From NCBI GenBank assembly GCA_937139405.1, contig CAKZPV010000001.1, positions 1-64,000 on the forward strand: a stretch of DNA of 64,000 nt, given 5' to 3'. Both the position numbers and the translations under genes were made by a program. Source of the DNA: an uncultured Nitrospirota bacterium. Lineage in GTDB: Bacteria; Nitrospirota; Nitrospiria; Nitrospirales; UBA8639. A model generated the notes under the pieces. That model ran no database searches, had not been told where the DNA came from, and saw only the letters and a list, made by a program, of their open reading frames with translations. This document shows positions 2,818 through 45,952 of the stretch, piece after piece. Each line of letters starts with the position of its first letter. Position 1 is the stretch's first letter.

Positions 2818-5225
2818 GTCAAAGGGGCCTTGACCACTATTTCCAGTTCCTCATGCGTCGCCAGGGGTTTGTGCTGCTGCTCGTGGCGGTGTTGACCGCA
2901 TTGGCCGGCTTTCAAATCATTCGCTCTCCACTTGACAATTCTTTGTTACACGCCTTTACGGTTGATCACGCTGAGTATGAACGGTTCCTTGAGAAATCCC
3001 GCCAACTTGAGGGCAAAACTGAAGATCGCATTTTTTTGGCCACTGTCGAAGGTGATGCGCTTTTCTCTGCTCGCGTCTTAAACGCCATTCGTGCTACTGC
3101 CCAGGCGATGGAACAATTGCCGGAAATCGCCGAAGTGAGCCACTTAGCTGACGCGACTCGGCTATCGGCCCATGTCATGCCAACCGGGGCGGTCCGCTAT
3201 TATGCGCGGAAATTGCTGGCCGAAGGAAAACTCAATGTCTCCAAAATACCGCAACCCCGGACCAGGTATTGGCCTGAATCGGAAAAGCAACAACGTGCAA
3301 TTGATTTTGATGCCTTGCGCAAGGACATGCTTGCCGATCAGACAGTAAGAGGTCATCTGCTTTCTCCCACGGCAACAGCACAAATTATGGTGATTGTTCT
3401 GAAATCACCCGACAATTTGTCCGCACAGGAACAGATGCAACTCAAACATCGACTTGAAGCAATTGCCCTAGATCACAAGCTTGGCGGTGGCGGCTTACAC
3501 TTCGCGGGATTTGTCATTTCTCAAGCGTGGTTCTTCGAAGAACTCGTGCACAATGCCATTTTGTTGTTCCCCATCGTCGTCTGCTTGGTCTGTCTGATTG
3601 TGTACCTGTTGTTTCGTCGTGTAGTCATAGTCTTCATCACAGGTATTGTCTGTTTACTTGCAACTATTTGGGCGGTTGGCACAACTTCGCTGGTGTTTTC
3701 GCAATTGAGCGTCATGGTAGTCGCCGCGCCGATCGTGATCGTCGTGGTTAGTACTTCCGATGTCATTCATCTAGTTGTGGCCTATCGATACGAACTGAAT
3801 CGTGGCCTGGCACAACAAGAAGCCTTGCGCTGTGTCATGAATAGAGTTGGGGGAGCGTGCCTGTTGACCAGCCTAACCACTCTGGTTGGTTTTGTGTCCC
3901 TCATGACCGTTCCCGTGTTGGCCATGAAGCAGTTTGCTTTTGCTGCTGCGTTGGGTGTCGCCAGCGCCTTGTTTATAGCAATGACGTTTGTTCCGATTGT
4001 CTGTTCATGGTCTCGGCCGCTTGAACCCAAAGCGAACGGGATGAATCAATTCGTGTCCTGGATCGTTGCCCAATGTCGGTGGGTAAGTTTGGATCATCCT
4101 TATAAAGTCGTTGTTGTGAGCGTTATTTTGATTGCCGGATCCCTGATTTTCGTGCGGCAAATAGAATTTTCCGCTGACTTCACGATGCGTTTCCCCGCCG
4201 ACCATCCCTATCGACAGGGGATTAATTTCTTTAACAATGAACTGGAAGGTTCATCGACAGTCGAAATACTTTTATCAGGCCCCGAGAGGTCTATTCCCAC
4301 ACGCGAAGTCACGCAGGCACTGTATACTGTTGAATCACAGGCCAAAAATGTGCCGCAAGTTGCATCCGTGCAATCAATTCTTGCTCTGTACCGCACGGTG
4401 GACCAACTGATTGGATTTCAGACACCCAGCGGTCTACCTGCAAGTCGAGTCGCAGCCGAAAACTCACTTGAGTTGATCGAACATTCGAATCTTTCAGCTA
4501 CAGCCTCCCTGGTTTCCTCTAAACGTGATTTATCAAGGATGGTGGTTCTGATGTCTACAACAGATCTTTTGGAATTACATCTTGGTGCGGAACGATTAAG
4601 ACAGGCAATCGGTGATGAATTTCCAAAATCTGTCAATGTCGAAGTTTCGGGTGTTGCCGCGATTATGGGGCGGGCTATTGACGCGATCATTGAAGCCAAT
4701 CTCCGTGGCTTGGGTCTGTGTGCCCTGGCTATTCTTCTCATCATGGCAATGGGTTTGCGTTCGATTCGTCTATCATTAATTGCGCAAATTCCTAACATGT
4801 GGCCGTTGCTCCTTCTTGGTTCGGCTTTGGTCTTGACACGTGATCGAGTGGATACTGACATGTTGATTTTGCCAATGATCGCACTGGGTCTCGCTGTTGA
4901 CGATACCATTCATTTTCTTCACCGATATCGTCTCGAACGCACGAATTGTGCTGATCGCCGAGCGGCTCTGGAGAACGTATTTCATTACAGTGGTCCAGCC
5001 ATCATACAGACCACCTTGATTTTGTGTATCGGTCTTTCCGTATGCGCGTTCTCAGCGTATGCCGGCGTGTGGATGCTCGGAACCTACTTGATATTTGCTC
5101 TTGGCTGTGCTGTTGTGGCGGACTTATTCCTCTTGCCAGCGTTGGTAATGTTGGGTGCAGTCGATTCTCAGTTCAATTCAAAACCCACCGGCGGGGATAG
5201 AATTTTTAACGGCATTATTGAATAA
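2802..5225 (+). CDS. RND/MMPL-family exporter (predicted lipid or isoprenoid transporter)
   Basis: 807-residue inner-membrane protein with the two-fold RND layout: an N-terminal anchor (about residues 20-40), a large periplasmic loop, a block of about five helices (250-400), a second anchor near 435, a second periplasmic loop and a final helix block (625-790). The motifs STSDVIHLVVAY and LAVDDTIHFLHRY are the equivalent helix-4 segments of each half, with acidic residues that usually carry protons. It resembles the MMPL/sterol-sensing group that moves hopanoids and other lipids, rather than drug-type AcrB. The TTG start lies inside the prenyl synthase gene, so the three genes form one coupled operon. 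Substrate inferred from neighbours only. Confidence 0.8.
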   Translation: MGVGLSQRGLDHYFQFLMRRQGFVLLLVAVLTALAGFQIIRSPLDNSLLHAFTVDHAEYERFLEKSRQLEGKTEDRIFLATVEGDALFSARVLNAIRATAQAMEQLPEIAEVSHLADATRLSAHVMPTGAVRYYARKLLAEGKLNVSKIPQPRTRYWPESEKQQRAIDFDALRKDMLADQTVRGHLLSPTATAQIMVIVLKSPDNLSAQEQMQLKHRLEAIALDHKLGGGGLHFAGFVISQAWFFEELVHNAILLFPIVVCLVCLIVYLLFRRVVIVFITGIVCLLATIWAVGTTSLVFSQLSVMVVAAPIVIVVVSTSDVIHLVVAYRYELNRGLAQQEALRCVMNRVGGACLLTSLTTLVGFVSLMTVPVLAMKQFAFAAALGVASALFIAMTFVPIVCSWSRPLEPKANGMNQFVSWIVAQCRWVSLDHPYKVVVVSVILIAGSLIFVRQIEFSADFTMRFPADHPYRQGINFFNNELEGSSTVEILLSGPERSIPTREVTQALYTVESQAKNVPQVASVQSILALYRTVDQLIGFQTPSGLPASRVAAENSLELIEHSNLSATASLVSSKRDLSRMVVLMSTTDLLELHLGAERLRQAIGDEFPKSVNVEVSGVAAIMGRAIDAIIEANLRGLGLCALAILLIMAMGLRSIRLSLIAQIPNMWPLLLLGSALVLTRDRVDTDMLILPMIALGLAVDDTIHFLHRYRLERTNCADRRAALENVFHYSGPAIIQTTLILCIGLSVCAFSAYAGVWMLGTYLIFALGCAVVADLFLLPALVMLGAVDSQFNSKPTGGDRIFNGIIE

Positions 5226-5391
5226 ACGGGAAGGTTTGGTATTGGTATTGGTTTTGTCAATTTAACTCTTTTGTGACAGACAGGGCGGCATGATAACTCC
5301 TATGCCCAGCTACCATTGTCACCGTTTTCCTGCCGAAATTTCCAGTCACGCCATGTGGCTTTATCATGGTTTCTGCCTCAGCTTTAGAGAC

Positions 5392-6291
5392 TTATGCCAG
5401 TACAGGTGCCAATTCAGGAGCAAGCCTCGTCTGAGGCTGTTGCTGCTCGCCCCAATACAGAGTTCGATGAGGAAATGGCATTTCAATCCCGCGTGCATCA
5501 AAGGTCTTTTTAATGCGCCGATTCATTTCCCGTCCGACAACCCATTGCCGAATTGGTTTAGTGGTGATCCGACATTTGATGATCACAGCCGAATCGGCAA
5601 ACTGATCAACCCCCAACATTTCTAAGGGTTCTAAAATATCTGGGCCAAACACTGGATCTGCCTGAAGGGAAGTTGCAATTTCTTTCAGGATCTCCATCAC
5701 TTCATCCACATCTACACGATAGGCCACCGCAACATTGAAGACATAACGTGAAAAATCCTTTGTCATATTCGTCACTGTGTTGACGGTGCCATTAGGAATC
5801 GTGTGAACATTGCCCGATAGATCACGCAGAGATATCGTTCGTAATCCCACATCTTCGACTTGCCCACTAACGCCGGCAATATTGACGATATCTCCCATGC
5901 GGATTTGATTTTCTAATAAAATAAAAAATCCCGAAATAACGTCTTTGACGAGACTCTGTGCTCCAAATCCAATCGCGATGCCTCCGACACCTGCGGCCAC
6001 GAGGAATGGGGCTAAATCTATTCCAAGTTGCGATAAAATGGTCATGATTCCAATTCCCGCAATCAACACCCAGAGAAAGTCTCCAAAGACATTCGTCAAC
6101 GTTTGCACACGTTGAACCTGTGCCTGCTCGGCAACGGTCCCCTCAATATAAGATTGCAGTCGTTTAATCAACCGATGGAGGATCAGAAATCCCACATACA
6201 TCGCCAGGAGAATCACGAGAATGACGGATCCTTTGCTCATGAGCCAATTGAGCAGGATAGAGGGCAATTGTTCAAATAATGTGGTATCCAT
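5392..6291 (-). CDS. MscS-family mechanosensitive channel 1
   Basis: 299-residue small-conductance mechanosensitive channel. Three or so N-terminal helices lead into the pore/beta-domain signature: the Gly/Ala-rich GVGGIAIGFGAQSLVKD, then ENQIRMGDIVNI and the conserved IPNGTV. It should open on membrane tension to release solutes during hypo-osmotic shock. The start at 6291 is chosen because AAGGAG precedes it with ideal spacing; an upstream in-frame ATG at 6315 lacks this. It is transcribed divergently from the tiny ORF and glgB, and an ECF-type promoter pointing the other way sits in the shared intergenic region. Confidence 0.93.
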   Translation of the reverse strand: MDTTLFEQLPSILLNWLMSKGSVILVILLAMYVGFLILHRLIKRLQSYIEGTVAEQAQVQRVQTLTNVFGDFLWVLIAGIGIMTILSQLGIDLAPFLVAAGVGGIAIGFGAQSLVKDVISGFFILLENQIRMGDIVNIAGVSGQVEDVGLRTISLRDLSGNVHTIPNGTVNTVTNMTKDFSRYVFNVAVAYRVDVDEVMEILKEIATSLQADPVFGPDILEPLEMLGVDQFADSAVIIKCRITTKPIRQWVVGREMNRRIKKTFDARGIEMPFPHRTLYWGEQQQPQTRLAPELAPVLA

Positions 6292-6344
6292 GGTGTTCTC
6301 CTTTAGGTTTGCCATTTCAACATTGTCTTTGATTGCTGAATTGA

Positions 6345-6374
6345 TGTGACGAAACGTCCTTCTTAGTTGTCTAA
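6345..6374 (+). promoter_or_regulatory. ECF-type promoter element, site A
   Basis: TGTGAC at 6345-6350 and GTCTAA at 6369-6374 are separated by exactly 18 bases. The longer shared form is TGTGACG-N14-GTTGTCTAA. It matches three other sites in the window base for base in the fixed positions. The GTCTAA box is typical of -10 elements used by ECF sigma factors. It points toward the 39-codon ORF at 6466 and glgB. Confidence 0.75.
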
Positions 6375-6465
6375 CTAATCAAGTGGACAAAGAAGTTTAT
6401 TTTAACCTAAGCCTTACTATTTATCACTGGCGCCACACAATCGTGCCTGAAGGAGGGAAAGTCAG

Positions 6466-6585
6466 ATGAACATTAATCGATCTGGAAGTGACAATCATGG
6501 TCGGAACGCTCCAGCGGTTTCACGAGAACCAAGTAAGCAGGAACAAGACGGCCGTCCAAAGAAATCAGTTCGGAATAAGGATTAA
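6466..6585 (+). CDS. Tiny hydrophilic protein (39 aa), unknown function
   Basis: A short ORF with an almost perfect ribosome binding site (AAGGAGGGAAAG, seven to eight bases before ATG), located about 90 bases downstream of ECF-type promoter site A. The product is very polar and basic, rich in Ser, Asn, Arg, Lys and Gln, with no hydrophobic segment. It is probably unstructured. A run of nine T residues (6654-6662) follows some 70 bases later without a clear strong hairpin, so read-through into glgB is possible. I recognise no family. The case for coding rests on the ribosome site and promoter context. Confidence 0.5.
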   Translation: MNINRSGSDNHGRNAPAVSREPSKQEQDGRPKKSVRNKD

Positions 6586-6685
6586 GTCCTTATCGTTCAC
6601 GCCGCACCTAGGGTCGCTTGAAAATGCCTCTCGTTTTTTCCCTTTGGGTGGGATTTTTTTTTAGGACAGAAATGATTTGTGGAAA

Positions 6686-8899
6686 ATGGATGATTGTGAA
6701 AGGCTCGCACAGGGAGAACATTCTCATCCCTTTTCTGTACTAGGCCCTCGTCTTCGCAGTCAATGTGGCCATAGTGTTCTCGTCGTGCGGGTGGTTTGGC
6801 CGGGAGGGAAGGATGTACAAATCATACCAATCAATAAGCCTCAATCTTCTTGCACCATGACTCGTATTCATCCAGCCGGTATTTTTGAAGGAGAAATTCC
6901 TCTGGATGTTTTGAATGAGGGCTATCAAATTCAGGTATCTGATTCTCAAGGAAATGTCTTCACCAGACATGACCCTTATGCCTTTCCTCCCCAACTTTCT
7001 GAGTTTGATTTACATTTATTCAGTGAAGGCAAGGATTACCGAGCCTATGAAAAGTTCGGGGCTCATTTTCGTACCGTTAATGGTGTTAACGGAGTGCATT
7101 TTGTCGTGTGGGCCCCCAATGCGATTCGTGTGAGTGTGGTGGGGGACTTCAATAATTGGGATGGGCGGGTATTTCCAATGGAATCTCGGGAAGACCAAGG
7201 TCTGTGGGAGTTATTTATCCCTGATATTCCTGAGGGGGCGTCCTATAAATATGAAATTCGATCAAAGCAAGAACCTGCCCCTTTTCTCAAAGCGGACCCG
7301 TATGCATTCGCGGCAGAACTTCGTCCTAACACGGCGTCAATTGTCCATGGTTTGTGTGGGTACACCTGGCAGGATCATGACTGGTTAGAGAGTCGCGCTG
7401 TCCGAGATCCCTTAATCCAGCCGCTTGCGATTTATGAAATTCATCTGGGTTCCTGGAGACGTGCGTCGGAAGAAGGATCACGGTGGTTAACCTATGCAGA
7501 GTTAGCCCGAGAACTGGTCCCCTATGTTAAAGAGCTCGGATTTACTCATGTTGAGTTATTGCCAATAACAGAACATCCCTTTGACGGCTCCTGGGGGTAT
7601 CAAACGACCGGGTATTTTGCGCCGACTCGTCGATTTGGAAATCCGAAAGAATTTATGGGGTTCGTGGATGCCTGTCATTTGGCAGGAATAGGGGTGATTT
7701 TAGATTGGGCACCGGCGCATTTCCCAGATGATCCACACGGTCTAGCCTGGTTTGATGGTACGCATTTGTATGACCACATCGATCCCCAAAAAGGATATCA
7801 TCCGGAGTGGCATAGTCGAATATTTAATTATGGACGGACCGAGGTCCGAAATTTTCTGATAAACAGTGCCCTATTCTGGTTAGATCGATATCATATCGAT
7901 GGATTGCGAGTGGATGCCGTGGCCTCCATGCTGTACTTGGATTACAGTCGAAAGCCAGGAGAGTGGGCACCCAATAAATATGGAGGCAATGAAAACTTAG
8001 AAGCCATTGAATTTCTGCGTGAGATGAATGTCAAAGTGCACCAGGAATATCCTGGTGCCATGATGATAGCGGAAGAATCAACAGCTTGGCCGGGAGTGTC
8101 TCGTCCCACATATGTGGGCGGGCTCGGATTTACGTTGAAATGGAATATGGGGTGGATGCACGATATCTTGAATTATTTTCAAACCGATCCAGTCTATCGA
8201 AAGAATCACCAAGACAAAACGACGTTTGGCCTTATGTATGCCTTTTCTGAAAATTTTGTTCTGCCCCTTTCTCACGACGAAGTGGTGCATGGCAAAAAAT
8301 CTTTACGAGAAAAAATGCCCGGTGATGAATGGCAGGGCTTTGCGAATCTTCGTGCATTGTTTGGTTTCATGTATGCTCATCCCGGCAAAAAAATGCTGTT
8401 TATGGGAGGAGAGATTGGGCAAAGAGAAGAATGGAACCATGAAGAGAGTATTGCATGGCCTCTTGTGGATTCTAAAGGTTCAAACTATCTTCTTCATCGT
8501 GGTCTTCAGAAATATGTCGCTGATCTTAACCGAATTTACAAAAACGAACCGGCGTTATATCAAAACGATTTTGATTCCACTGGATTTCAGTGGATCGATT
8601 CTACGGACACCGAACAATCCATCATTGCTTTTATCCGCCGGGCCAAAGATCCAGCCAATTTTATCGTCTGTGTGTGCAACTTCACTCCGGTGCCTCGCTA
8701 TCATTATCACGTCGGCGTGCCTCGAGATGGAACGTATCGTGAATTATTCAATAGTGATTCGAAACACTATGGCGGAAGCAATCTCGGGAATAATGGGGCA
8801 GTAGATTCTATTCCGGAAAAAGAGCAACACTTTTCTCATTCTTTAATTCTGACGCTTCCACCCCTGAGCATGCTTTGGTTGAAGCCCATCCAACAATGA
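6686..8899 (+). CDS. glgB: 1,4-alpha-glucan branching enzyme GlgB
   Basis: Introduces alpha-1,6 branches into alpha-glucan. It is full length (about 737 aa), with N-terminal beta domains including a CBM48 (around 130-220, motif VVGDFNNWDGR) and a GH13 catalytic barrel. Catalytic residues are visible: the nucleophile Asp in GLRVDAVASM, the acid Glu in MIAEESTAWPG, and the transition-state Asp in LSHDEVVHGK. Start is ATG 6686; a TTG at 6677 with AGGA upstream is an alternative that adds three residues. It heads a run with treS-mak and glgE, completing the GlgE route, in which GlgE extends chains and GlgB branches them. ECF-type site A lies upstream. Confidence 0.97.
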   Translation: MDDCERLAQGEHSHPFSVLGPRLRSQCGHSVLVVRVVWPGGKDVQIIPINKPQSSCTMTRIHPAGIFEGEIPLDVLNEGYQIQVSDSQGNVFTRHDPYAFPPQLSEFDLHLFSEGKDYRAYEKFGAHFRTVNGVNGVHFVVWAPNAIRVSVVGDFNNWDGRVFPMESREDQGLWELFIPDIPEGASYKYEIRSKQEPAPFLKADPYAFAAELRPNTASIVHGLCGYTWQDHDWLESRAVRDPLIQPLAIYEIHLGSWRRASEEGSRWLTYAELARELVPYVKELGFTHVELLPITEHPFDGSWGYQTTGYFAPTRRFGNPKEFMGFVDACHLAGIGVILDWAPAHFPDDPHGLAWFDGTHLYDHIDPQKGYHPEWHSRIFNYGRTEVRNFLINSALFWLDRYHIDGLRVDAVASMLYLDYSRKPGEWAPNKYGGNENLEAIEFLREMNVKVHQEYPGAMMIAEESTAWPGVSRPTYVGGLGFTLKWNMGWMHDILNYFQTDPVYRKNHQDKTTFGLMYAFSENFVLPLSHDEVVHGKKSLREKMPGDEWQGFANLRALFGFMYAHPGKKMLFMGGEIGQREEWNHEESIAWPLVDSKGSNYLLHRGLQKYVADLNRIYKNEPALYQNDFDSTGFQWIDSTDTEQSIIAFIRRAKDPANFIVCVCNFTPVPRYHYHVGVPRDGTYRELFNSDSKHYGGSNLGNNGAVDSIPEKEQHFSHSLILTLPPLSMLWLKPIQQ

Positions 8900-31993: not shown

Positions 31994-34900
31994 GTGCTGA
32001 GTCGATTACCAACAACTGCCGTTCCATTCTGGCTTTCATGGGTCGTGTGGAGCAGCGTGGTATGTGGATGGCTTGCCGTGGCGATGGTCATCTTTATGCT
32101 TCCTGTCCTCTCAGATACTGGCTGGGTCAAAGAATCTCTCATCGAGCAACTAGAAGAAATGGTTGGTGGGCCGATTCAGATAGCCACCATGAACCTGCAT
32201 CTCTTTCCTGTGCCTAAAATTTACTTGGAAGACGTCTCCGTCCAAACCCTGGAACCAGACGCTGTGACCTTTCGTGCCAACCTTGTGGAAGTGGCTGTCG
32301 GCTGGAACTCATTCTGGGATGAGAACGTATCGATTTCTCGTATCATACTCGACCAGCCGAAATTAACGGTGGAGTTACCCCTAGCCCCCAAGCCTGAAGA
32401 GCCTATTGAGTGGCAATTTCCTGCAATACAGCAATTGGTTTTCCGCAACGGCCAACTCCATCTTCGACATAAGTTTTCCAACCAAACACCCCAATCATTG
32501 AATTGGGAAATGATTCAGCTTACCGTCACACAAGCCGAGGAAGAAGGACCCTCGCTGATTCGTCTGTCAGCCAGAATTCCCAATCCACAATTTTCCTCCG
32601 CTCTCACCTTTAAGGGAGAACTCACCGCTCTCGAGCCGCGTGTCACTTCTCCATCAACTGAAGAATTCCCAGTTATTCCCCCAATAAATATTGAAGGCCA
32701 GATTGAGGGCTCACACTTGAATCTCAGCCAATTCGTTCAGTTTGCGAATGGACAGAGGTTGGAGCCTCCGATTCATACTGAGGCGAATATTCAAGGAGAT
32801 TTTTCATTCACTATTCAAGAAGACACCGACAATCTTACAATGAAAGATTTTCACTTTTCTTTAGACGACTGGTCTTTTGTGGGCCAAGGCAGCCTCGTCG
32901 ATGTGTTCTTCGACTCAACTCGATTGGATATTTCCGGATCTTCATCACCTGTGGCTCTTGAGCGACTCTCCAGCCTTCTTCCTCATGATTGGATATCAGC
33001 AGACGTACAAACTGTTCTTCGTGAGCACCAGGTCATTGGCACTCTGGAGCTTGAGCAGGGATCCTTTCATATTCCATTCCATGAAAATGCCGAATTGGAA
33101 GCAGAGGGATTGATTCGAGTGGCAGGTGGCCAATTCCTTCCTGCCCCTGATCAACCTCTCTTTACTGATGTGTCAGGTTCTGTTTCGTTTTCGCCTTCTG
33201 CTCTCAAGTTCTCGCAAGTTCGCGGACACATCAAGCCATTAACCATAACGGCCCCAGAAGCCACAATGCAGATGGAAGAAAATGCCTTTCAGCTGTCTGT
33301 CCCCAGCATTCAGATTGCTGAAGGAGATTGGGCACTCAGCGGGAACGTCGAATTTTCCCATCAACAGGAATCTCCTCCCGTGCTTGTAGTTTCTGCATCG
33401 TCTCGGCCTGTTTCGCTTCAACACTTTTCTAGGATCCTCCCTAAACCCTGGCTCCCACCTTCTGTTCAAAACATTCTGATGGAACTGGATATTGATGGTG
33501 AAATGGAGCTCCTCACCGGTTCGGTTCAGTGGATAGGTGATGAAGCTAACACCCTGATACCCGAGGCTGTCTTCCGTATTGCCGAGGGAACCATCCAGAT
33601 AGATCCTGACCATCCTCCTTTGAGCAATGTATCCGGAGGCATTGTCTTGGGAGCCGATCTTTTCAGATTTCTGGATGTAGAAGCCTCGATAGCGAATTCC
33701 AAGATTGTCGTCAAAGAAGCCACGCTAGAACAGAAGGATTCGGAATACTGGTTGGATCTGAAGGGAAAAGGACGATTCTCGGCTCATGATGTGTACCAGG
33801 CCTTACTCCAAGATCCGCGTAGCCAAGCGCTATTACCACAATTGGACCTCTACCATCGCGCGCAAGGAAACATTCAGATCGCTCTAGGGATGCAGGGTCC
33901 ATTGAACAACCCCGAGAAATTTCAGATTTCAGAGGGCCACCTACTGCTTGACGACATTCATCTTTTCTCTACCAAAAATGAGTTGCCTCTCAGGCAACTC
34001 AATGGCGAATTGACTTTTGATAACCAAGGGATAGCTATTCAACGCTTCAATGGACAGCTTGGCGACAGTCCCGTGGACATCAAAGGTCAATGGGCATTTC
34101 GGAAAAATTCACAATCATCTAATCTCACGATTGCAGGTAGCCTCTTCTCAAGGGACCTTCATACGCTCTTCCCTGCCATCCGTGAAAATTTTTCTACCTT
34201 AGAAGGCCCAATAGAAGCCACCTTATCGCTCTCCGGGGCGACGTCTCGTCCTGACTACCTGGCTCAATTTGATCTCACTAATATGAGCCTGATAGTGAAA
34301 GATATATTTCATAAACCTTTAGGAATCCCGGCGGCAATTAAACTGAAAGGATCAGTCTATGAGGATGCCGCCATCCGAATGACAAAGGGCACATTGTCAA
34401 TACCTCCCTATACACTCGAAGCCCAAGGCCGCTTGTCATGGTCCGATCCCCCTTATATTCGAGCGCTTGTTCAAACCGAAAGCGGAACGGGAGCCATTTT
34501 TCCCGAAGGCGTGATCATTGGGGATGAAAATCTTCGTCTTTCCAGTTTAGGCATCATTTGGGGGCTTGAGGGAAAAAGTTGGAATTGGACGACTTGGTCT
34601 ATGAAAGGAACAGTCGAAGGAAGTAACCGAAACGCACAAACCACGACTTCCAACTCGAATGAAGACATTCAATCGGTTTCTATCAAATGGGCGCAGAAAA
34701 ATCAGGAAGGGAAAGGAGAGGTCACTCTGAAAAAAATTCCGATCGAAAGTCTCTTGGTGGCCCAATCCGGCTCTTCACCGCCCTTGACTGGAATCACATC
34801 GTTGACGACTTCGCTGCACATGGGCCTCGACAGCCCGGAGCAGATGCAACGCTCATTGACTGGAAAAGGAACCGTGCAACTGCAAAAGGGCCTGATTCAA

Positions 34901-35398
34901 ACTGGTCCCGTGCTGTCAAAAATTCTCGGAATCTTGAATGTGCCGAGCCTGTTAATGGGCAAAGTGAATCTCTTGGAAGAAGGACTCCCATTCGATGCGT
35001 TAACTGGAACCTTCTCAATAGACAAAGGTCTTCTCACTACTCAAGATTTAGCCCTTAAAAGCCCAGTCATCAAACTCACCGCTGCTGGAACTTACGACCT
35101 TCCCACTGAAAATCTCGAAAGTATGATTGCCGTGAGCCCGTTTGGAGCCTATTCCAACTTGCTCAAGGATATCCCACTTTTTGGCTCCCTGATAAAGGGA
35201 GAACGGAAGGGGTTCTTGACTGCCTTGTTTGAAGTGAAAGGGCCCAGAACCAAACCGGAAGTGACCTACTTACCAATAGAATCATTTGCCGGTGGGCTCA
35301 AAGGTCTAGCGCAAGTGCCAATCGACGTATTAAAAAACATCATTACTCTTCCTATTCCAGATAAGCAACCAACCAATCAAGGCTTACCGACCAAATGA
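31994..35398 (+). CDS. AsmA-family envelope protein
   Basis: A 1134-residue protein anchored by one N-terminal helix (about 12-40) with a long periplasmic beta-rich body. The opening after the anchor (GWVKESLIEQLEEMVGGPI, then a 'VPKIYLEDVSV' strand) is the AsmA N-terminal signature. The last 250 residues show the AsmA-like C-terminal domain (SGATSRPDYLAQFDL, LPFDALTGTFSIDKG, LKDIPLFGSL). AsmA/TamB/YhdP proteins form groove-like bridges thought to carry phospholipids between membranes. The start is GTG 31994, the only in-frame start after a stop at 31976, with a weak ribosome site. A lipoprotein gene precedes it and an HtrA-like gene follows. Confidence 0.88.
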   Translation: MLSRLPTTAVPFWLSWVVWSSVVCGWLAVAMVIFMLPVLSDTGWVKESLIEQLEEMVGGPIQIATMNLHLFPVPKIYLEDVSVQTLEPDAVTFRANLVEVAVGWNSFWDENVSISRIILDQPKLTVELPLAPKPEEPIEWQFPAIQQLVFRNGQLHLRHKFSNQTPQSLNWEMIQLTVTQAEEEGPSLIRLSARIPNPQFSSALTFKGELTALEPRVTSPSTEEFPVIPPINIEGQIEGSHLNLSQFVQFANGQRLEPPIHTEANIQGDFSFTIQEDTDNLTMKDFHFSLDDWSFVGQGSLVDVFFDSTRLDISGSSSPVALERLSSLLPHDWISADVQTVLREHQVIGTLELEQGSFHIPFHENAELEAEGLIRVAGGQFLPAPDQPLFTDVSGSVSFSPSALKFSQVRGHIKPLTITAPEATMQMEENAFQLSVPSIQIAEGDWALSGNVEFSHQQESPPVLVVSASSRPVSLQHFSRILPKPWLPPSVQNILMELDIDGEMELLTGSVQWIGDEANTLIPEAVFRIAEGTIQIDPDHPPLSNVSGGIVLGADLFRFLDVEASIANSKIVVKEATLEQKDSEYWLDLKGKGRFSAHDVYQALLQDPRSQALLPQLDLYHRAQGNIQIALGMQGPLNNPEKFQISEGHLLLDDIHLFSTKNELPLRQLNGELTFDNQGIAIQRFNGQLGDSPVDIKGQWAFRKNSQSSNLTIAGSLFSRDLHTLFPAIRENFSTLEGPIEATLSLSGATSRPDYLAQFDLTNMSLIVKDIFHKPLGIPAAIKLKGSVYEDAAIRMTKGTLSIPPYTLEAQGRLSWSDPPYIRALVQTESGTGAIFPEGVIIGDENLRLSSLGIIWGLEGKSWNWTTWSMKGTVEGSNRNAQTTTSNSNEDIQSVSIKWAQKNQEGKGEVTLKKIPIESLLVAQSGSSPPLTGITSLTTSLHMGLDSPEQMQRSLTGKGTVQLQKGLIQTGPVLSKILGILNVPSLLMGKVNLLEEGLPFDALTGTFSIDKGLLTTQDLALKSPVIKLTAAGTYDLPTENLESMIAVSPFGAYSNLLKDIPLFGSLIKGERKGFLTALFEVKGPRTKPEVTYLPIESFAGGLKGLAQVPIDVLKNIITLPIPDKQPTNQGLPTK

Positions 35399-35537: not shown

Positions 35538-37097
35538 ATGATCTCCATTTTTAGACAGCAACAACTCAAGCATGAAGAACGTAGGCTCAACACAATGACT
35601 CAAAGACGCGTTCCGTTCTTTTTCGTTGTCTCACTGATACTCAGTTTTTTTCTTTTCACGACGAATTTGCTGGCCTCTTCAACCCAAGAAAACTCCCCAA
35701 CAAGAAAAACACCAACGCCAACACCGGAAGGCTTCGCCCTTTCACGTACATTCATACATATGGCTCAGCAGGCAAAAAATTCGGTGGTGAATATTGTCGT
35801 TAAAAAAACCATTATCAGTGATGTAGCGCCGTCAACACGCTTGCCGATTCTGGGGAAACCATTGCTCCGACAGTTTTTCGAAAAATCCTCGATACCGGAA
35901 GAAGAGATGTCTCTGCCAGAAAGTCGAGAACAGGAAATGACCTCTGGGGTAATTATCCAATCCGATGGGTATATACTGACGAATAAATCCGTGCTTGATC
36001 ACGCCTATGATATACGCGTTCAATTAATTGATGAGCGTGTCTTGAAAGCGGAAATCATCGGTCAAGATCAGTCAACCGATTTAGCGGTTTTGAAAATTAA
36101 CGCTTTCCAATTACCAACTTTTCGCTGGGGCAATTCGGATGTCCTTCAAGTTGGAGAAATCGTCATGGCGGTTGGCAACCCCTTTGGTCTCAGCCAAGTT
36201 CTAACAATTGGCGTTATTAGTGCTACAGGACGAGGAAATGTCGGCTTTGTCGACTATGAAAGTTTTATTCAAACAGATGCCGCCATGAACCCCGGAAATT
36301 TCGGAGGAGCGTTACTCAATATGAAAGGAGAGCTCATAGGGATCAACACCTCCATCCTTCATGAAAGTAGTGGAAACACAGGGATAGGCTTTGCCATCCC
36401 AAGCCAAATGGCCAAAACTGTTGCCACCTCATTAATGAAACAAGGAAAAGTGCTCCGTGGATGGCTTGGAATAGCGACTCAAAAACTGACCCCAGACTTA
36501 GCGAAGCATTTCAAGACTTCACATGGAAAAGGTGTGATCATAACCGACTTAGCCAAGGATGGCCCTGTAGGCCGAGCCAAATTTCAAAGGAGAGATGTGA
36601 TCTTGGAGTACAAGGATATGCCCGTTACCACCCCTCGACAATTACAGTCCTTGATCGCAGAAACCGAGCCTGGGACATCCATAACCATCAAACGACTGCA
36701 AGGGGGAAAGGAAAAGGATGTGGTCGTCAAGGTAGAAGAATTTCCCGTCGAAACCAGTCCGCGTACGTCCTTGAAACGAAAAGGAGACCCTCAACTCCTG
36801 ACTGGAGTGACCGTAGAGTCTGTTCCAAGGAACTTCCCAGGGACGGAAGGTGTCCTTGTGGTTGAAATCGCTCCGGGGACCCTAGGCGATAAACAGGGCT
36901 TACAAGAGGGCGACATTATCCTGGACATCAACCAAACTCCAATACGTTCGGTCGAAGATTTTGAGAAACTCGCAAGACAACTTAGTCGGCAGGACACAGC
37001 ACTTCTCTTGCTGCGTCGTGAGAACGCGACAATGTATCTCCCGCTTCAGAATCAGTTAGCACCAATGTCCAGTAGCCAACATCAATTATTGCCCTAA
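35538..37097 (+). CDS. HtrA/DegP homologue lacking catalytic His and Ser (predicted pseudoprotease)
   Basis: 519 residues: N-terminal membrane anchor or signal (about 25-47), trypsin-like domain (about 75-300) and two PDZ domains (about 305-400 and 415-505). The fold is intact and motifs such as VMAVGNPFGL and GNTGIGFAIP are conserved. But the catalytic triad is broken. The usual TNxHVV reads TNKSVL (Ser at residue 151 for His), and GNSGGAL reads GNFGGAL (Phe at residue 255 for Ser). The Asp (residue 181, in QSTDLAVLK) remains. It is therefore unlikely to cut proteins and probably works as a chaperone, scaffold or PDZ-based sensor. An AAGGGGG site precedes the ATG. Confidence 0.9.
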   Translation: MISIFRQQQLKHEERRLNTMTQRRVPFFFVVSLILSFFLFTTNLLASSTQENSPTRKTPTPTPEGFALSRTFIHMAQQAKNSVVNIVVKKTIISDVAPSTRLPILGKPLLRQFFEKSSIPEEEMSLPESREQEMTSGVIIQSDGYILTNKSVLDHAYDIRVQLIDERVLKAEIIGQDQSTDLAVLKINAFQLPTFRWGNSDVLQVGEIVMAVGNPFGLSQVLTIGVISATGRGNVGFVDYESFIQTDAAMNPGNFGGALLNMKGELIGINTSILHESSGNTGIGFAIPSQMAKTVATSLMKQGKVLRGWLGIATQKLTPDLAKHFKTSHGKGVIITDLAKDGPVGRAKFQRRDVILEYKDMPVTTPRQLQSLIAETEPGTSITIKRLQGGKEKDVVVKVEEFPVETSPRTSLKRKGDPQLLTGVTVESVPRNFPGTEGVLVVEIAPGTLGDKQGLQEGDIILDINQTPIRSVEDFEKLARQLSRQDTALLLLRRENATMYLPLQNQLAPMSSSQHQLLP

Positions 37098-37229: not shown

Positions 37230-38639
37230 ATGAGCAGCGCTTCATTACACAAATATGATTATGACCTCGTGTGCATCGGAAGCGGCCCGGCCGGGCAACG
37301 GGCAGCGATTCAAGCTGCAAAAATTGGGAAAACTGTGGCCGTGATCGAAAAAAGGCGAGTCGTAGGCGGTGCATGTCTCGAAACTGGAACAATCCCCAGC
37401 AAAACCTTTCGTGAAGCCGTCATGGCTTTTTCCACAAGCCAGGTCTTCCTCAAAAAGCAGGCGCTCACGTCCTCTAATCGTCCAATGGCCAGTCAACTAC
37501 TTTCTCGGGTTCAAGAAGTCATTGGTTTGGAAGTGGATGTTTTGAAAGATCAATTATTGCGTAACGATGTTGTGATGATAAGTGGCAATGCGGCCTTTCG
37601 CGATGCTCACACGCTTCATGTTGTTACGGAGGTAGATGACATCCAAATCACATCCGATAAATTTCTCATCGCGACAGGGACAATTCCTACTCCTCCACCG
37701 GGCGTCCCATCTGATGGAACAATGATTGTAAATAGTGATGGTGTGCTCAGCCTTACAACGTTGCCAAAAACCCTCACTGTCGTTGGTGCCGGAGTCATTG
37801 GGATTGAATACGCCTCTATGTTTGCTGAATTAGGGGTTGATGTCACTGTGGTCGATAAACGCAACCGCCCCTTGGAATTTCTGGATTATGAAATTGTGGA
37901 CGAATTGATTCACCAGATGAGAAATAAGGATGTGGTGTTTCGATTAAATGAAACAGTGGAGCAACTTGAGATTTCCCATAATCCCCACGACCGGGCCATC
38001 ATCCGACTCGAATCAGGTAAACGCCTCGTCGCTGATTTAGTCTTGTACTCTGTCGGGCGGCTCGGAGCAACCGAAGCACTCAATTTGAAAGCTGCTGGTC
38101 TTGGAACTGATGACCGTGGGCGCTTGAAAGTCAATGAACATTTCCAAACGAGCCTACCGCATATTTTCGCGGCGGGTGATGTGATCGGATACCCCAGCTT
38201 AGCAGCCACCTCTTCCGAACAGGGCCGATTGGCTGCCTGTTATGCCTTCAATATTCCAGCCGACCCGATGGTCGATCACTTTCCCATTGGCATCTATGCG
38301 ATTCCGGAAATCTCCATGGTCGGTAAAACTGAACAAGAATTAAGCAAGAACAAGGTGCCGTACGAAACGGGGATGGCACGCTACAGGGAAATCGCTCGCG
38401 GAGCTATCATGGGTGACAACACAGGTTTTTTCAAGATGTTATTTCACCGGGAGACACGGAATCTATTAGGAGTCCATGCAATAGGGACTGGAGCAACCGA
38501 GCTGATCCATATTGGCCAGGCCGTCATGGGATTGGGTGGTGGACTGGATTATTTTTTGAAAACGGTGTTCAACTATCCTACTCTGGCAGAATGCTACAAA
38601 GTCTCAGCACTCGATGCCTACAACAAGCTCAATCACTGA
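37230..38639 (+). CDS. sthA: Soluble pyridine nucleotide transhydrogenase (SthA-like flavoprotein)
   Basis: A 469-residue member of the dihydrolipoamide dehydrogenase superfamily. GSGPAGQRAA binds FAD, GAGVIGIEYASMFAELG binds NAD(P)H, FAAGDVIG is the second FAD site, and the C-terminal dimerisation domain is complete. The active-site disulfide of lipoamide dehydrogenases (CxxxxC) is replaced by CLETGTIPSK, where the second Cys is Thr; that is the SthA pattern. It moves hydride between NADH and NADPH pools. It lies just upstream of cydAB and may help redox balance for the bd oxidase (inference). Confidence 0.9.
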   Translation: MSSASLHKYDYDLVCIGSGPAGQRAAIQAAKIGKTVAVIEKRRVVGGACLETGTIPSKTFREAVMAFSTSQVFLKKQALTSSNRPMASQLLSRVQEVIGLEVDVLKDQLLRNDVVMISGNAAFRDAHTLHVVTEVDDIQITSDKFLIATGTIPTPPPGVPSDGTMIVNSDGVLSLTTLPKTLTVVGAGVIGIEYASMFAELGVDVTVVDKRNRPLEFLDYEIVDELIHQMRNKDVVFRLNETVEQLEISHNPHDRAIIRLESGKRLVADLVLYSVGRLGATEALNLKAAGLGTDDRGRLKVNEHFQTSLPHIFAAGDVIGYPSLAATSSEQGRLAACYAFNIPADPMVDHFPIGIYAIPEISMVGKTEQELSKNKVPYETGMARYREIARGAIMGDNTGFFKMLFHRETRNLLGVHAIGTGATELIHIGQAVMGLGGGLDYFLKTVFNYPTLAECYKVSALDAYNKLNH

Positions 38640-38678
38640 GGCAAAGGCTTTACACGTTAGCTATCTCAACCAATTGAT

Positions 38679-40016
38679 ATGAGTGATTTATTAGCAGCGA
38701 GATCCCTTATGGCTATGTCGCTAGGATTTCATATTATCTTTGCGATGGTTTCCATGGCGATGCCGCTTCTTATGGTCATTGCTGAATGGCAGTGGTTAAA
38801 AACCGGGCAAGAAGTTTATTTGACGGTAGCCAAGCGCTGGGCAAAAGGCGCAGCCATCTTCTTTGCCGTTGGCGCCGTGTCTGGAACCGTCTTGTCCTTT
38901 CAACTTGGACTGTTGTGGCCAGCCTTTATGGCATGGGCAGGACCGATTATTGGTTTGGCCTTTTCGATTGAAGGCTTTGCCTTTTTTACCGAAGCCATCT
39001 TTCTCGGCATTTATTTATACGGATGGCAAAAGGTCAGCCCCAACGCACATTTGGCTGCAGGAATGGTCGTCGCAGTGAGTGGAATTATCTCAGGTGTGGT
39101 AGTCGTGATGGCCAACGGCTGGATGAACACGCCACGAGGGTTTACGCTTGTTGATGGAATCCCCTCGAATATTGATCCCATCGCAGCGCTCTTGAATCCT
39201 TCTGGTCTTTTACAAGCCCCACACATGATTCTTGCGGCATTTGCCGCAGTGGGATTTGCTGTTGCTGGCATTCATGCCTTCCTTCTTCTACGCCATCCGG
39301 ACCATCCTTTTCATCAGACGGCCTTCACCATTGCGGCGGCGGTAGGCTGCATCAGCGCACTTCTCCAACCCTTAAGTGGGGATTTTCTTGCCAAACGAGT
39401 GGCAGAATTTCAACCGATGAAATTGGCCGTCTTTGAAGGCCAGGTACATACTCAAAAGGGAGCCCCCTTTCGCCTCGGTGGCATTTGGAATTCGGATAAA
39501 GAAATGTTTGATTATGTTCTGGAAATCCCTTATGCCCTCAGTCTGATGTTACATCTCGATCCTCAAGGTGAAGTTCAAGGATTCAAAGATTTCCCTAAGG
39601 AGCATTGGCCGCCAATTGGACTGGTCAGGACGGCCTTTCAAATTATGGTGTTTATTGGTATTTCCATGATGTTTCTGGCTCTCTGGGCAACATGCCTGGT
39701 CTTCATGAAAAAAAATATCTTTCAGTCAAAAGCATTTTTGAAAGCCATGGTCTTCGCGACGCCACTGGGGTTTCTTGCAACTGAATGTGGATGGGTCGCC
39801 ACGGAAGTCGGCCGACAACCCTGGATAGTGGTGGGCTATGTGAAAACAGCCGAAGCGGTCACGCCAATGCCAGGACTGAATATTCCGCTAGTCTTTTTTG
39901 CTGGGCTCTATACGTTTTTAGCTTTTATCGTCGTATGGCTTATGCTCCGACATGTGGCCGCCACACCTGGCCAATTCGAAATGAATCCTCGCACGAACCT
40001 CACGGCACTGACATGA
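38679..40016 (+). CDS. cydA: Cytochrome bd-type ubiquinol oxidase subunit I
   Basis: A 445-residue, nine-helix subunit carrying haems. MSLGFHIIFA holds the conserved N-terminal His ligand, and the quinol-binding periplasmic loop includes SGDFLAKRVAEFQPMKLA and the conserved Glu of VFEGQ. The GRQPWIVVGY motif near 385 is the haem b region. The Q-loop is short, as in the cyanide-insensitive (CIO) type. It oxidises quinol and reduces O2 to water without pumping protons. It overlaps cydB by four bases (ATGA). The ribosome site is weak. Confidence 0.95.
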   Translation: MSDLLAARSLMAMSLGFHIIFAMVSMAMPLLMVIAEWQWLKTGQEVYLTVAKRWAKGAAIFFAVGAVSGTVLSFQLGLLWPAFMAWAGPIIGLAFSIEGFAFFTEAIFLGIYLYGWQKVSPNAHLAAGMVVAVSGIISGVVVVMANGWMNTPRGFTLVDGIPSNIDPIAALLNPSGLLQAPHMILAAFAAVGFAVAGIHAFLLLRHPDHPFHQTAFTIAAAVGCISALLQPLSGDFLAKRVAEFQPMKLAVFEGQVHTQKGAPFRLGGIWNSDKEMFDYVLEIPYALSLMLHLDPQGEVQGFKDFPKEHWPPIGLVRTAFQIMVFIGISMMFLALWATCLVFMKKNIFQSKAFLKAMVFATPLGFLATECGWVATEVGRQPWIVVGYVKTAEAVTPMPGLNIPLVFFAGLYTFLAFIVVWLMLRHVAATPGQFEMNPRTNLTALT

Positions 40017-41053
40017 TTGATTTAGAAACGACATTAGCTATTGCGCTCCTTGTGTCCCTGACCTTTTATGTACTCATGGCAGGGGCTGACTTTGGAGCTG
40101 GGATTTGGCACCTCCTGGCACATGGGCCATCCCGTCGCGACCAACATCATTTAATCGGCGAAGCCATTGGTCCCATTTGGGAGGCCAACCATGTGTGGCT
40201 GATACTTATTGTCACCATTCTCTTCACGGCGTTTCCCACTGCCTATGCACAAATTTCAGTCACACTCCACATTCCCCTCACACTTCTAGTAATCGGGATT
40301 GTCCTTCGCGGTTCAGCCTATGCCTTTCGGCATTACGATATCCGCCATGATGAACTCCACGTTCGTTGGGATCAATTGTTTGCTCTAGCCAGCCTCATCA
40401 GCCCCTTCCTCCTCGGGATTATTATCGGGGCTATCACGGCGGGCAGTTTTCCCATAAGCCCCGAGAGTTTCTTCGAAGGCTACTTGTCCAATTGGCTTCA
40501 GCCTTTTCCGCTAGCTATGGGACTGCTAGCTTTGGTGTTCTTTGCCTATCTAGCGGCAGTCTATCTCATTCTCGAGACACAGGACTCCAGCCTTCAGGAA
40601 ATTTTCCGAAAACGGGCTATCACCGCTGCGATATGCGCAGGATTGCTTGGTGAAATTGTTTTCTTCTTAGGACAAGAAGGAGCTTCATATTTATGGGGTG
40701 ACATGACCAATTCATTATGGGGTGGTTTGATCATTTTTGGGACTGTCGTCTTCACCGTCGCGTCCGTACGATTTCTCTTCACCCGCCACTATTGGTGGGC
40801 TCGAACCTGTGCTATTCTTCAAGTTATTCTAACCATTTGGGCATGGGGCCTAGCCCAGTTTCCATATCTCGTGCCACCCTATCTTACGATTTACAGCGCG
40901 TCTTCCCCAGCAATTACCCTTCAGTTTATGGTGATCGCGTTAATTGTGGGCGCATGTTTACTGTTTCCCTCCCTTTATTATTTATTTCGCATCTTCAAAG
41001 AAGACTCCATATTGGGGCTCAAACATGCCCCTAAAAAACCAGCAGATACTTAG
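40013..41053 (+). CDS. cydB: Cytochrome bd-type ubiquinol oxidase subunit II
   Basis: 346 residues, about eight to nine helices, with the signature FYVLMAGADFGAGIWHL near the N-terminus and GPIWEANHVWLI (about 55-65) on the second helix, both CydB hallmarks. The start is ATG 40013 inside the cydA stop; the frame is open further upstream (39785) but that part is only the shifted cydA sequence. CydB pairs with CydA and holds the quinone or second proton path depending on the species. No CydX-like tiny ORF was evident directly downstream. Confidence 0.95.
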   Translation: MIDLETTLAIALLVSLTFYVLMAGADFGAGIWHLLAHGPSRRDQHHLIGEAIGPIWEANHVWLILIVTILFTAFPTAYAQISVTLHIPLTLLVIGIVLRGSAYAFRHYDIRHDELHVRWDQLFALASLISPFLLGIIIGAITAGSFPISPESFFEGYLSNWLQPFPLAMGLLALVFFAYLAAVYLILETQDSSLQEIFRKRAITAAICAGLLGEIVFFLGQEGASYLWGDMTNSLWGGLIIFGTVVFTVASVRFLFTRHYWWARTCAILQVILTIWAWGLAQFPYLVPPYLTIYSASSPAITLQFMVIALIVGACLLFPSLYYLFRIFKEDSILGLKHAPKKPADT

Positions 41054-41197: not shown

Positions 41198-42361
41198 ATG
41201 GTTTTCATTTGTATGCTGGCCGGTCTTACAGGATGCCTCTCTCCTTATTCATTGGAGAAAGCTGTGGTGGCTTATGATTATGCCGTCACCAATACCTTGG
41301 TGGAACAATTGTTGGTGAATATTGCCCGAGCCCACCATCATCAACCTGTCCACTTTACAGGTGTATCCAATATTGCCGCGACCTTTGATTTTAGCGTCAA
41401 CGCTGGTGCCACTCCACCCCTTGGCGGAGTCGATGGGGGATTTTCCTTAGCTCCATTATTCGGCGCCAGTGTTTCAGAAAATCCGACGATTAGTATTGCA
41501 CCTATAGATGGAGAAGAATTTACCAAGCGGCTTCTTACGCCCTTTCAAGAATCCAAACTCACCTTGCTACTTCGTCAAGGTGTGGATATCGACTTACTGT
41601 TACGGTTAATGGCTGGGGAGCTTCGGGTGTTTCACGGGGACGGGGAGATTGCCTATTACAACACTCCATCCGATGAAACAGGGTATCCCAAATTTCGTCG
41701 GGCTGTCTTGCATCTTTCTCGATTACAAGATACGAATCAGTTGTACGTGGAGCCCTTAGTGATTGAACGCTCATGGAATATCCCGTTTTCTTCTTTGTCG
41801 GGTGAAGATTTTTCGATACTCGAAAAAGAATATCAAGTGACCTATGACATATCCACCAACGCATACCTTTTACAAAAAAGGATTGTGGGCCGCATTGTGA
41901 TCACTAATTATGATCCTGATCTGCTTGACCCCGCTGAGCGGCTTGATCTGCAGAAAAAGGCTGAACGGTGGCCCCCGAACGATCTATTAATAGACATTCG
42001 ACCAGGATTTCCTGGAGGCGAACTTCCTCTTCAGGGCGATTTTCGTCTTCGAAGTTTTCATGCCATTCTCAATTTTCTTGGGCGTACCATGGAAGAAGAG
42101 CCAGAATATCACGTTGACCCCGATCCTCTCACAGGCTCAGTCACCGAAAATCCGGTAAGAACCTTTGACATTATTGAAACTGAGTTTCCACCAGAGCACG
42201 CCATTTTATCGGCCTCATATGAAGGAGAGTACTATTCATTTGGTGACCGGGAGAATGAATCTTGGAATCAAGAGGCATTTCGCCTTCTCTATCAACTCTA
42301 TCAAATGACCGTGACCGAAGAGTTAAAAGGCGCGGCTCCCAGTATCACGATCGCCAAATGA
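41198..42361 (+). CDS. Lipoprotein of unknown function; real start may be an ATC at 41156
   Basis: The hydrophobic segment ends in LAGLTGC, a lipobox, and the mature protein is about 375 residues, mixed alpha/beta with no motif I know. From the first ATG (41198) the signal peptide would be only 13 residues with no positive charge. Fourteen codons upstream an AAGGAGGCAACC ribosome site stands at perfect spacing before ATC (41156). The same GGAGGCAACC precedes the ATG at 21745. Starting at ATC would add a polar segment containing Lys and give a normal 27-residue signal. The next gene downstream is a decayed outer-membrane protein. Confidence 0.75.
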   Translation: MVFICMLAGLTGCLSPYSLEKAVVAYDYAVTNTLVEQLLVNIARAHHHQPVHFTGVSNIAATFDFSVNAGATPPLGGVDGGFSLAPLFGASVSENPTISIAPIDGEEFTKRLLTPFQESKLTLLLRQGVDIDLLLRLMAGELRVFHGDGEIAYYNTPSDETGYPKFRRAVLHLSRLQDTNQLYVEPLVIERSWNIPFSSLSGEDFSILEKEYQVTYDISTNAYLLQKRIVGRIVITNYDPDLLDPAERLDLQKKAERWPPNDLLIDIRPGFPGGELPLQGDFRLRSFHAILNFLGRTMEEEPEYHVDPDPLTGSVTENPVRTFDIIETEFPPEHAILSASYEGEYYSFGDRENESWNQEAFRLLYQLYQMTVTEELKGAAPSITIAK

Positions 42362-43228: not shown

Positions 43229-45952
43229 ATGGCCAAAAACTCAGAGATGACGCAAAGAGTGGTGAAACAAAAAAAACTACATAAGAACTCGACTAGAAAA
43301 AAGACCATGACCTCGGAAGAACGACGGTTGAATGAATCAAAGAACCATCAAAAACATTGGAAACGTTGGGGCCCTTATTTGAGTGAACGACAGTGGGGCA
43401 CAGTACGTGAGGATTACAGTGCTGCTGGAACTGCCTGGGAGTATTTTCCTCATGATCATGCACGCTCGCGTGCTTATAGGTGGGGAGAAGATGGTCTTGG
43501 TGGGATCTGTGATCGACACCAATATCTCTGCTTTGCCCTGGCACTGTGGAACGGCCAAGACCCCATCCTCAAAGAGCGTCTTTTTGGATTGACCAACCAA
43601 GAGGGGAATCACGGAGAAGACGTGAAAGAACAGTACTTTTATCTCGATTCGACACCGACTCATTCCTATATGAAATTTCTCTATAAGTATCCACAACAAG
43701 CATTTCCCTATCAACAACTTCTTGAAGAAAGTCAAAAACGAGATCGAGGGGAGAAGGAATATGAATTATTGGATACAGGTATCTTCCAGGAAAATAGGTA
43801 TTTCGATGTGTTTATCGAATATGCCAAAGCCAACCCCGAAGATATCGGGATCAAAATTACCGCCTGCAATCGTGGACCTGATCTTTCCACGTTAACTCTC
43901 TGCCCAACCCTGTGGTTCCGCAATACCTGGTCGTGGGGATCCGATACGGATAAGCCTATTCTACAAAAAAGATACCCCGCTGGTGATATCCCTGTCATTG
44001 AAGCCGAACATGCCTATTATGGAAAACGTTGGTTATTGTGTGACGGTGATCCGGAGCTATTGTTTACAGAAAATGAGTCAAACGGAGAGCAGTTGTGGGA
44101 CATCGAGAATCGCAGTCCATATGTGAAAGATGCATTTCATCGATATCTTATTCAGAAGGAACTGCATGCGGTTAATCCTGACAAGGTCGGCACGAAGGCT
44201 ACAGCTTGTTATCAGCTACGGATACCTCCCAATTCTCAGGCGACCATCAAGCTTCGTTTGACGAATAAACTCCCAAAAGACTCGGCATTCGGAACATTGT
44301 TCAATTCAAATTTTGCCAAACGAAAATCTGAAGCGTATGACTTCTATTCCATGCGATCTCAAGATTTATCCCCCGACGAGCAAAGTATCCAACGACAAGC
44401 TTTTGCAGGTCTTCTTTGGTCAAAACAGTATTACCAGTATGATGTTCGAACTTGGAGTCAAGGAGATCCAGTCGGTCCACCACCTCCTCCGGGACGAGAC
44501 AAGATTCGAAATGGTAATTGGACGCATCTGTATAACGCCGATGTGATCTCCATGCCCGACAAATGGGAATACTCATGGTATGCCACATGGGATTTAGCGT
44601 TTCACTGCATTCCGCTCGCACAGATTGATCCAGACTTTGCCAAAGAACAACTTCTGTTATTCCTACGTGAATGGTACATGCATCCTAATGGCCAACTTCC
44701 GGCGTATGAGTGGTCCTTTGATGATGTCAATCCTCCCGTGCATGCATGGGCCGCCTGGCGAGTCTATAAGATTGATAAGCGAGTCCGGGGAAAAGCCGAT
44801 CGCAATTTTCTGGAACAAGTCTTTCACAAACTACTGCTGAACTTCACGTGGTGGGTCAATCGAAAGGACCTCGATGGAAAAAATCTTTTCCAAGGCGGCT
44901 TTCTTGGTCTGGATAATATCGGGATCTTCGATCGCTCCAAAGAGTTACCGACGGGGGGACATTTCGATCAATCCGATGGAACAAGTTGGATGGGCATGTA
45001 TTGTCTCAACATGCTTGCGATCGCGTTGGAGCTGGCGAAAGAGAATCCTGCTTATGAGGGCGCCGCGAGTAAATTCTTTGAACATTTCGTCTATATTACC
45101 CACGCCATCAACGGGAAAGGAGATGAGTGTCTCGATTTATGGGATGAACATGATGGATTTTATTATGATGTTTTGCATCTTCCAAATGGCGACCATAAAA
45201 AAATCAAGATTCGGTCCATGGTTGGATTAATCTCGCTTTTTGCGGTCGAAACGCTAGAGTCCGAGATCATTGATGCCTTGCCGGAATTTAAGCGGCGGAT
45301 GCTTTGGTTTTTGGAAAATCGGCCAGAACTTCGTCGACATGTCGCCACAATGACGCATAGGGATGGAGAGATTCGGCGAATGCTCTCCATTGTTGGAGAA
45401 GACCGCCTCTCCCGTGTACTCCAAACCGTACTGAATGAGCAGGAGTTCCTGTCTCCCCATGGTATTCGCTCGTTGTCTCAATACCATCAAGATGCACTTT
45501 TTATGATGCAGATGAACGGCAACACCTATCAAGTACGATATGAACCAGCCGAATCGACGGTGCCAGATTTTGGTGGTAACTCCAATTGGCGGGGTCCGAT
45601 ATGGTTCCCAGTGAATTATCTATTGATTGAGTCTCTTCAGAAATATCATCATTTCTTAGGAAACGCTTATACGATTGAATGCCCGACTGGGTCAGGTCAC
45701 TACCTCTCGCTTTGGGACGTCGCAGGTGAATTGGCTCATCGACTCAAAAGTATTTTTCTCAAAGATGACAATGGTCGTAGACCAGTGTATGGCGGAATCC
45801 ATCAGTTTCAACATGATCCTAACTGGAAAGAACTCATTCATTTTCATGAATATTTTCATGGAGATAACGGCACAGGTCTTGGCGCGAGTCATCAAACCGG
45901 CTGGACGGCCCTCGTGGCAAAGCTGATGGAACAATATCCCACGAAGGAATAA
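43229..45952 (+). CDS. GH63-family glucosidase-like protein (mannosyl-oligosaccharide glucosidase type)
   Basis: A 907-residue cytosolic protein with a lysine-rich start and no signal peptide. The C-terminal (alpha/alpha)6 barrel shows GH63 hallmarks: [35 protein letters not shown] with the catalytic Asp, [20 protein letters not shown] and [14 protein letters not shown]. Bacterial GH63 proteins act on glucosyl linkages of oligosaccharides such as glucosyl-glycerate or alpha-glucans; the substrate here is not fixed. AGGA nine bases upstream supports the ATG. It adds another glucan-active enzyme to a window already holding GlgB, GlgE, GlgP and a GH13 enzyme. Confidence 0.88.

Follow-up and report, generated by a model that had tools for sequence, protein, structure and literature searches.

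A DegP/HtrA-like gene in the 64,000-nucleotide stretch of DNA analysed here, referred to as the window, encodes a protein in which both the catalytic His and the nucleophilic Ser of the serine protease triad are replaced within an intact reading frame. It belongs to a clade of seven genes that is, as a whole, losing protease constraint, and within the DegP family, well known for its part in protein quality control, this branch appears to be on its way to becoming a protein that binds but no longer cuts. Taking the evidence jointly, we think it reasonably probable that the product is a secreted, dead DegP-type protein that serves as a holdase or scaffold and is, among known members, the most eroded one of a clade without the usual protease selection. 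The relevant features of the window are as follows.

31994-35398, + strand: YhdP/AsmA-like gene, ~140 bp upstream of the htrA gene (domain match, synteny)
35538-37097, + strand: probable DegP/HtrA-like pseudoprotease gene, 519 aa, with ATG at 35538; orthologues share the upstream start region
35595, + strand: alternative start ATG (M20) of the same gene
35925-36443, + strand: trypsin-like protease domain, residues about 130-302 (Pfam Trypsin_2 at 136-269; AlphaFold confident over most of it)
35988-35990, + strand: Ser151 codon TCC, replacing the catalytic His (DegP H105; alignment, codon comparison)
36078-36080, + strand: Asp181 codon GAT, the catalytic Asp (DegP D135; alignment)
36198-36200, + strand: Val221, replacing activation-cluster Thr176 of DegP (alignment)
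36285-36287, + strand: Met250, replacing an invariant Ile (DegP I205; alignment)
36300-36302, + strand: Phe255 codon TTC, replacing the nucleophilic Ser (DegP S210; alignment, codon comparison)
36444-36746, + strand: PDZ1, residues about 303-403, with the carboxylate-binding loop R-G-W-L-G-I intact (domain match)
36798-37043, + strand: PDZ2, residues about 421-502 (domain match, AlphaFold)

In its architecture the protein resembles DegP and DegQ (the Do family), with which it shares a signal-like N-terminus, a trypsin-like domain and two PDZ domains. HMM searches of the 519-aa open reading frame identify a Trypsin_2 match (3.1e-27) and both PDZ domains, and its score of 415.4 bits with the Do-family model TIGR02037 narrowly misses the curated cut-off of 416.2. 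The N-terminus is hydrophobic and signal-like, ending in LLASS (judged by eye). Identity to solved DegP and DegQ proteins is ~31-35%, and the AlphaFold model (mean pLDDT 81; 280 of 519 residues at 90 or above) has DegQ and DegP as its best Foldseek matches. Promoter and terminator scans gave results at chance level.

Alignment with solved DegP, DegQ and AlgW places Ser151 and Phe255 on the catalytic His and Ser, and the coordinates and codons given for these substitutions in the initial annotation are exact, with Asp181 kept. Its accompanying remark that the active-site motifs are otherwise very well conserved does not stand, as T176V, I205M and A227S (DegP numbering) are also altered, each at a site that ordinary HtrAs conserve. 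The activation cluster of DegP consists of Thr176, Ser183, Arg187 and Gln200, and proteolysis falls significantly when any one of the four is replaced (reviewed in PMC11642142); unlike DegP and DegQ, the window protein has Val for Thr176 in addition to lacking the catalytic His and Ser, and it retains Ser183, Arg187 and Gln200. A substitute nucleophile next to residue 255 was considered and rejected, the local sequence GNFGGA offering no candidate. On chemical grounds, loss of both nucleophile and base would leave no route to serine proteolysis, and the protein, judged from its sequence, almost certainly lacks serine protease activity. Residue content, the intact frame and the complete PDZ domains bear out the proposal that it would be a real pseudoprotease.

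The syntenic orthologues have CAT for the His and TCT or TCC for the Ser, so that the window gene requires at least two and one substitutions at these codons, respectively. Because it differs from both orthologues by three or more base changes, a sequencing slip is unlikely. More generally, it is barely credible that an error of sequencing or assembly conceals a true gene with His and Ser: although one assembly of the species was compared, such an error would comprise a two-base change in one codon, another change 310 bases off and the further active-site changes, all within an intact frame and in a genome that is 98% complete in 51 contigs.

Clear orthologues within the window genus (21 genomes) are those of G018 (65% identity) and G012 (62%), and the gene is thus patchy, being present in 3 of the 21. 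The initial annotation had allowed that its reading would be refuted if all orthologues kept His and Ser and the changes were confined to this assembly. Ser151 and Phe255 are indeed not fixed, as both orthologues retain His, Asp and Ser; this is the only genome in which the triad is known to be lost, and with the nearest relatives compared at 62-65% identity, a change in the assembly alone and one in its species lineage look the same. The exact pattern NPGNFGGA occurs once among 396 genomes of the phylum, in the window alone, and a scan of genome contigs returned relatives at 43% identity or less and no close orthologue. Among the 49 remaining genomes of the family, genus g9 contributes G045, G042 and G044 at ~51% identity and the more distant G041. 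The resulting clade spans seven genes, two of them near-identical, in two genera of one Nitrospirota family. Its members are monophyletic in a 91-sequence tree (SH-aLRT 99), and a clade profile run over 236 genomes of the order scored the seven at 762-884 bits, with the next best at 577 and no further members found. The genome also appears to hold the second, active DegP that the initial annotation had suggested looking for: L002-L005 are four two-PDZ HtrAs with complete triads. Shorter or divergent HtrA forms with complete triads are encoded as well, and identity between the window protein and the paralogues in its own genome is only about 40-46%.

Erosion of the protease apparatus extends well beyond the window gene. 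Among 95 ordinary HtrAs used as a control, the equivalents of DegP H105, D135, S183, R187, Q200, N206, G208, N209 and S210 do not vary, and T176 is occupied by Thr or Ser. The same holds for the subset of 63 HtrAs that came from a whole-protein search and are therefore free of ascertainment by peptide pattern (His and Ser in 63 of 63, against 95 of 95 in the full set). Five of the seven clade members break T176, R187, N206, N209, H105 or S210, whereas none of the 95 controls does, save for the Thr/Ser alternation at T176. The departures are distributed as follows.

Window: T176V, H105S, S210F
G018: R187Q
G045: T176I, R187Q, N206I
G042: R187H, N209L
G044: R187H, N206H, N209L
G012 and G041: no departure at these positions; these look competent

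A leave-clade-out control found this clade departing at 18 of 58 near-invariant columns; 12 of the 18 lie in or close to the active site, a region where each of the other clades shows 0-1 departures. The active-site column set was partly picked by eye, and the effect is also seen with residues 243-257 taken by themselves. The window branch carries six changes at columns at least 90% conserved in controls, five of which are H105, T176, I205, S210 and A227. We note that G042 (L150:6550-8103) and G044 (L151:5228-6751) share a GLSGG motif, created by N209L, alongside an intact Ser, His and Asp, and are possible cryptic pseudoproteases.

The clade has also diverged unusually in its protease domain. 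Compared across the same species trio, protease-domain differences are 0.26-0.28 for the clade and 0.06-0.13 for ordinary DegP paralogues (2-4 times more in the clade), whereas the ranges overlap for PDZ2 (0.24-0.28 versus 0.08-0.28) and PDZ1 (0.28-0.35 versus 0.07-0.34). Since the ratio of protease-domain to PDZ2 divergence in some ordinary paralogues overlaps that of the clade (0.56-0.89 for degP-B, 0.93 for degP-E), the absolute divergence of the protease domain is the better evidence. Synonymous divergence is not raised in the clade (dS 0.9-1.3, versus 1.3-1.7 for ordinary DegPs, all values near saturation), and the protease-domain excess therefore does not reflect greater age or transfer from afar; horizontal transfer was rejected as its source, with neither synonymous nor PDZ2 divergence elevated. 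The excess is already evident between G018 and G012, both with intact triads, and release of the protease domain therefore preceded triad loss.

That the gene is under selection, as initially proposed, agrees with the comparison of the window gene and G018 (dN 0.24, dS 1.23), which indicates purifying selection overall, this being a pairwise value and not one for the window branch by itself. Between G042 and G044 dN/dS is ~0.12 with dS unsaturated (0.30), showing that the GLSGG form too is under purifying selection. In the 91-sequence tree the window branch (0.36) is no longer than that of its intact-triad sister (0.35), and Tajima tests for acceleration of the window branch were not significant; there is therefore no visible further relaxation after loss of catalysis, unless that loss was very recent.

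These data bear directly on whether the window gene has simply died recently, drift having abolished catalysis in a single lineage while the remainder is still undecayed. Such early pseudogene decay would fit a triad loss seen in one genome, a gene that is dispensable to judge from its presence in 3 of 21 genus genomes, and redundancy with the active paralogues. We nonetheless regard it as unlikely, given that 519 codons are intact, that the three or more base changes together with T176V, I205M and A227S all fall in the catalytic apparatus and leave the PDZ domains and core unremarkable, that the branch shows no rate excess, and that sister genes erode in like manner under purifying selection. 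Conversion of a protease into a non-proteolytic binding protein may have been stepwise, beginning with clade-wide release, continuing through independent breaks of the activation switch (R187, T176) and the oxyanion loop (N206, N209) in several members, and reaching its end state with loss of His and Ser; we consider this sequence of events an even proposition.

As to what the protein does, retention of the fold, the PDZ ligand loop and the constraint on PDZ2 suggests that it binds. Suppression of aggregation and rescue of stress phenotypes are still seen with protease-dead DegP S210A and other inactive HtrAs (PMC11642142, PMC5023192), which makes a holdase or scaffold the most economical reading, and by analogy such a periplasmic function has about an equal chance of being right or wrong. 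The window protein would assemble like DegP and DegQ, its PDZ domains would bind C-termini or unfolded segments, and clients would be held, or handed to the active DegP paralogues, as by engineered DegP S210A. That mutant has the same architecture, likewise lacks the nucleophile, and keeps its chaperone effect in vivo and in vitro (PMC11642142, PMC5023192). The window protein differs in being natural, in having also lost the base, and in carrying a bulky Phe at the nucleophile site, and its chaperone role is putative.

The chief functional rival is a regulatory subunit that forms mixed trimers or cages with the active DegP paralogues and tunes them, much as MamO promotes MamE-dependent proteolysis in magnetotactic bacteria. 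Paired active and inactive HtrAs have precedent (PMC4794232), active paralogues are encoded in the same genome, and the DegP fold is kept along with Q200 and S183 of the activation cluster. Against this, those paralogues are distant in sequence (the 40-46% identity given above), and the MamO effect runs through a TauE-type domain that the window protein lacks; we judge the regulatory reading quite improbable. MamO is similar in that its HtrA-related protease domain has a degenerate triad and is maintained alongside an active HtrA (PMC4794232), but it alone has a di-His metal site and, at its C-terminus, a transporter domain of the TauE type. It also sits in a magnetosome island. Within ~8 kb of the window htrA the neighbours are CNNM, RimK, YhdP, SthA-like, cytochrome bd and MGH1-like genes, and over that distance no magnetosome genes appear.

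Repurposing of the protease domain for new binding, of a metal for example, has its precedent in MamO (PMC4794232), and a catalytic pocket released from catalysis is free to change. The positions of the MamO di-His site (Asp-1 and Ser+38, derived from residue numbers in PMC4794232) are nevertheless Thr180 and Lys293 in the window protein, on which ground a MamO-type metal site was rejected, and the MamO model NF040961 scores it at 65 bits against a cut-off of 800. We consider repurposing of this kind highly unlikely and return to the holdase or scaffold as the preferred reading.

HtrA pseudoproteases as such are already known from magnetotactic bacteria, namely MamO and inactive MamE copies, the latter having arisen three times (PMC4794232). 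Among these, inactive MamE1 and MamE2 of delta- and gamma-proteobacterial magnetotactic bacteria are likewise duplicated, retained HtrAs that have lost triad residues (PMC4794232), but they belong to a different clade, and the lineage described here includes intact-triad sisters with broken activation residues that represent intermediate states. A DegP-type lineage with graded loss, in which the activation switch and oxyanion loop are broken under a full triad and the triad itself is lost in one member, is new among the open-access literature searched.

The initial annotation saw in the AsmA-family neighbour a hint of an envelope role. Linkage of the YhdP-like gene and htrA is found in three genomes of the genus (the window, G012 and G018, with one gene intervening in G018), while the g9 clade members are located elsewhere and the YhdP locus of G016 and that of G005 lack this htrA. 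A linkage that is limited to the genus, and missing at two YhdP loci, therefore reflects local history and says little about function, and the inference was dropped. A separate pairing occurs in G006, where a different, triad-intact HtrA adjoins a YhdP-like gene in opposite orientation (L154:8655-10154 and 5207-8572), and in G044 the clade htrA lies upstream of PF05618-like, multi-pass membrane and RimK-like genes (L151).

Downstream in the window, an SthA-like pyridine nucleotide oxidoreductase and cytochrome bd subunits I and II (37230-41053) lie between htrA and a gene for a 387-aa protein starting at 41198. This last gene directly follows htrA in G012 and directly precedes it in G018, and the differing placement makes the SthA-like and cytochrome bd stretch look like a cassette inserted here or lost elsewhere. 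The 387-aa protein (41198-42361; L148:5926-7144) has no Pfam match and is 94% identical to the G012 copy (87% at the DNA level), whereas htrA and YhdP close by reach only 60-62% identity to those of G012, which suggests either an exchange of alleles or an unusual constraint. In G005 the gene for the 387-aa protein is present as a tandem pair, the first copy apparently fragmented (L153:9505-12199). A large MGH1-like glycoside hydrolase gene lies within ~6 kb of the clade htrA in G000, G045 and G041, representing two genera at 78-80% identity (window 43229-45952; L149:8090-10786; L209:13430-16135).

The physiological weight of the chaperone side of DegP, apart from proteolysis, is disputed (PMC11642142), and a natural DegP lineage that discards catalysis while keeping its binding domains would constitute independent evolutionary evidence on the matter, and the graded clade members could serve directly for tests of the sequence of steps by which protease function is lost. 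A complete His-Asp-Ser triad is no proof of activity, and the sisters with substitutions at R187 or N209 would be annotated as active peptidases. If the stepwise conversion is correct, these intact-triad sisters would be cryptic pseudoproteases that automated annotation labels as active.
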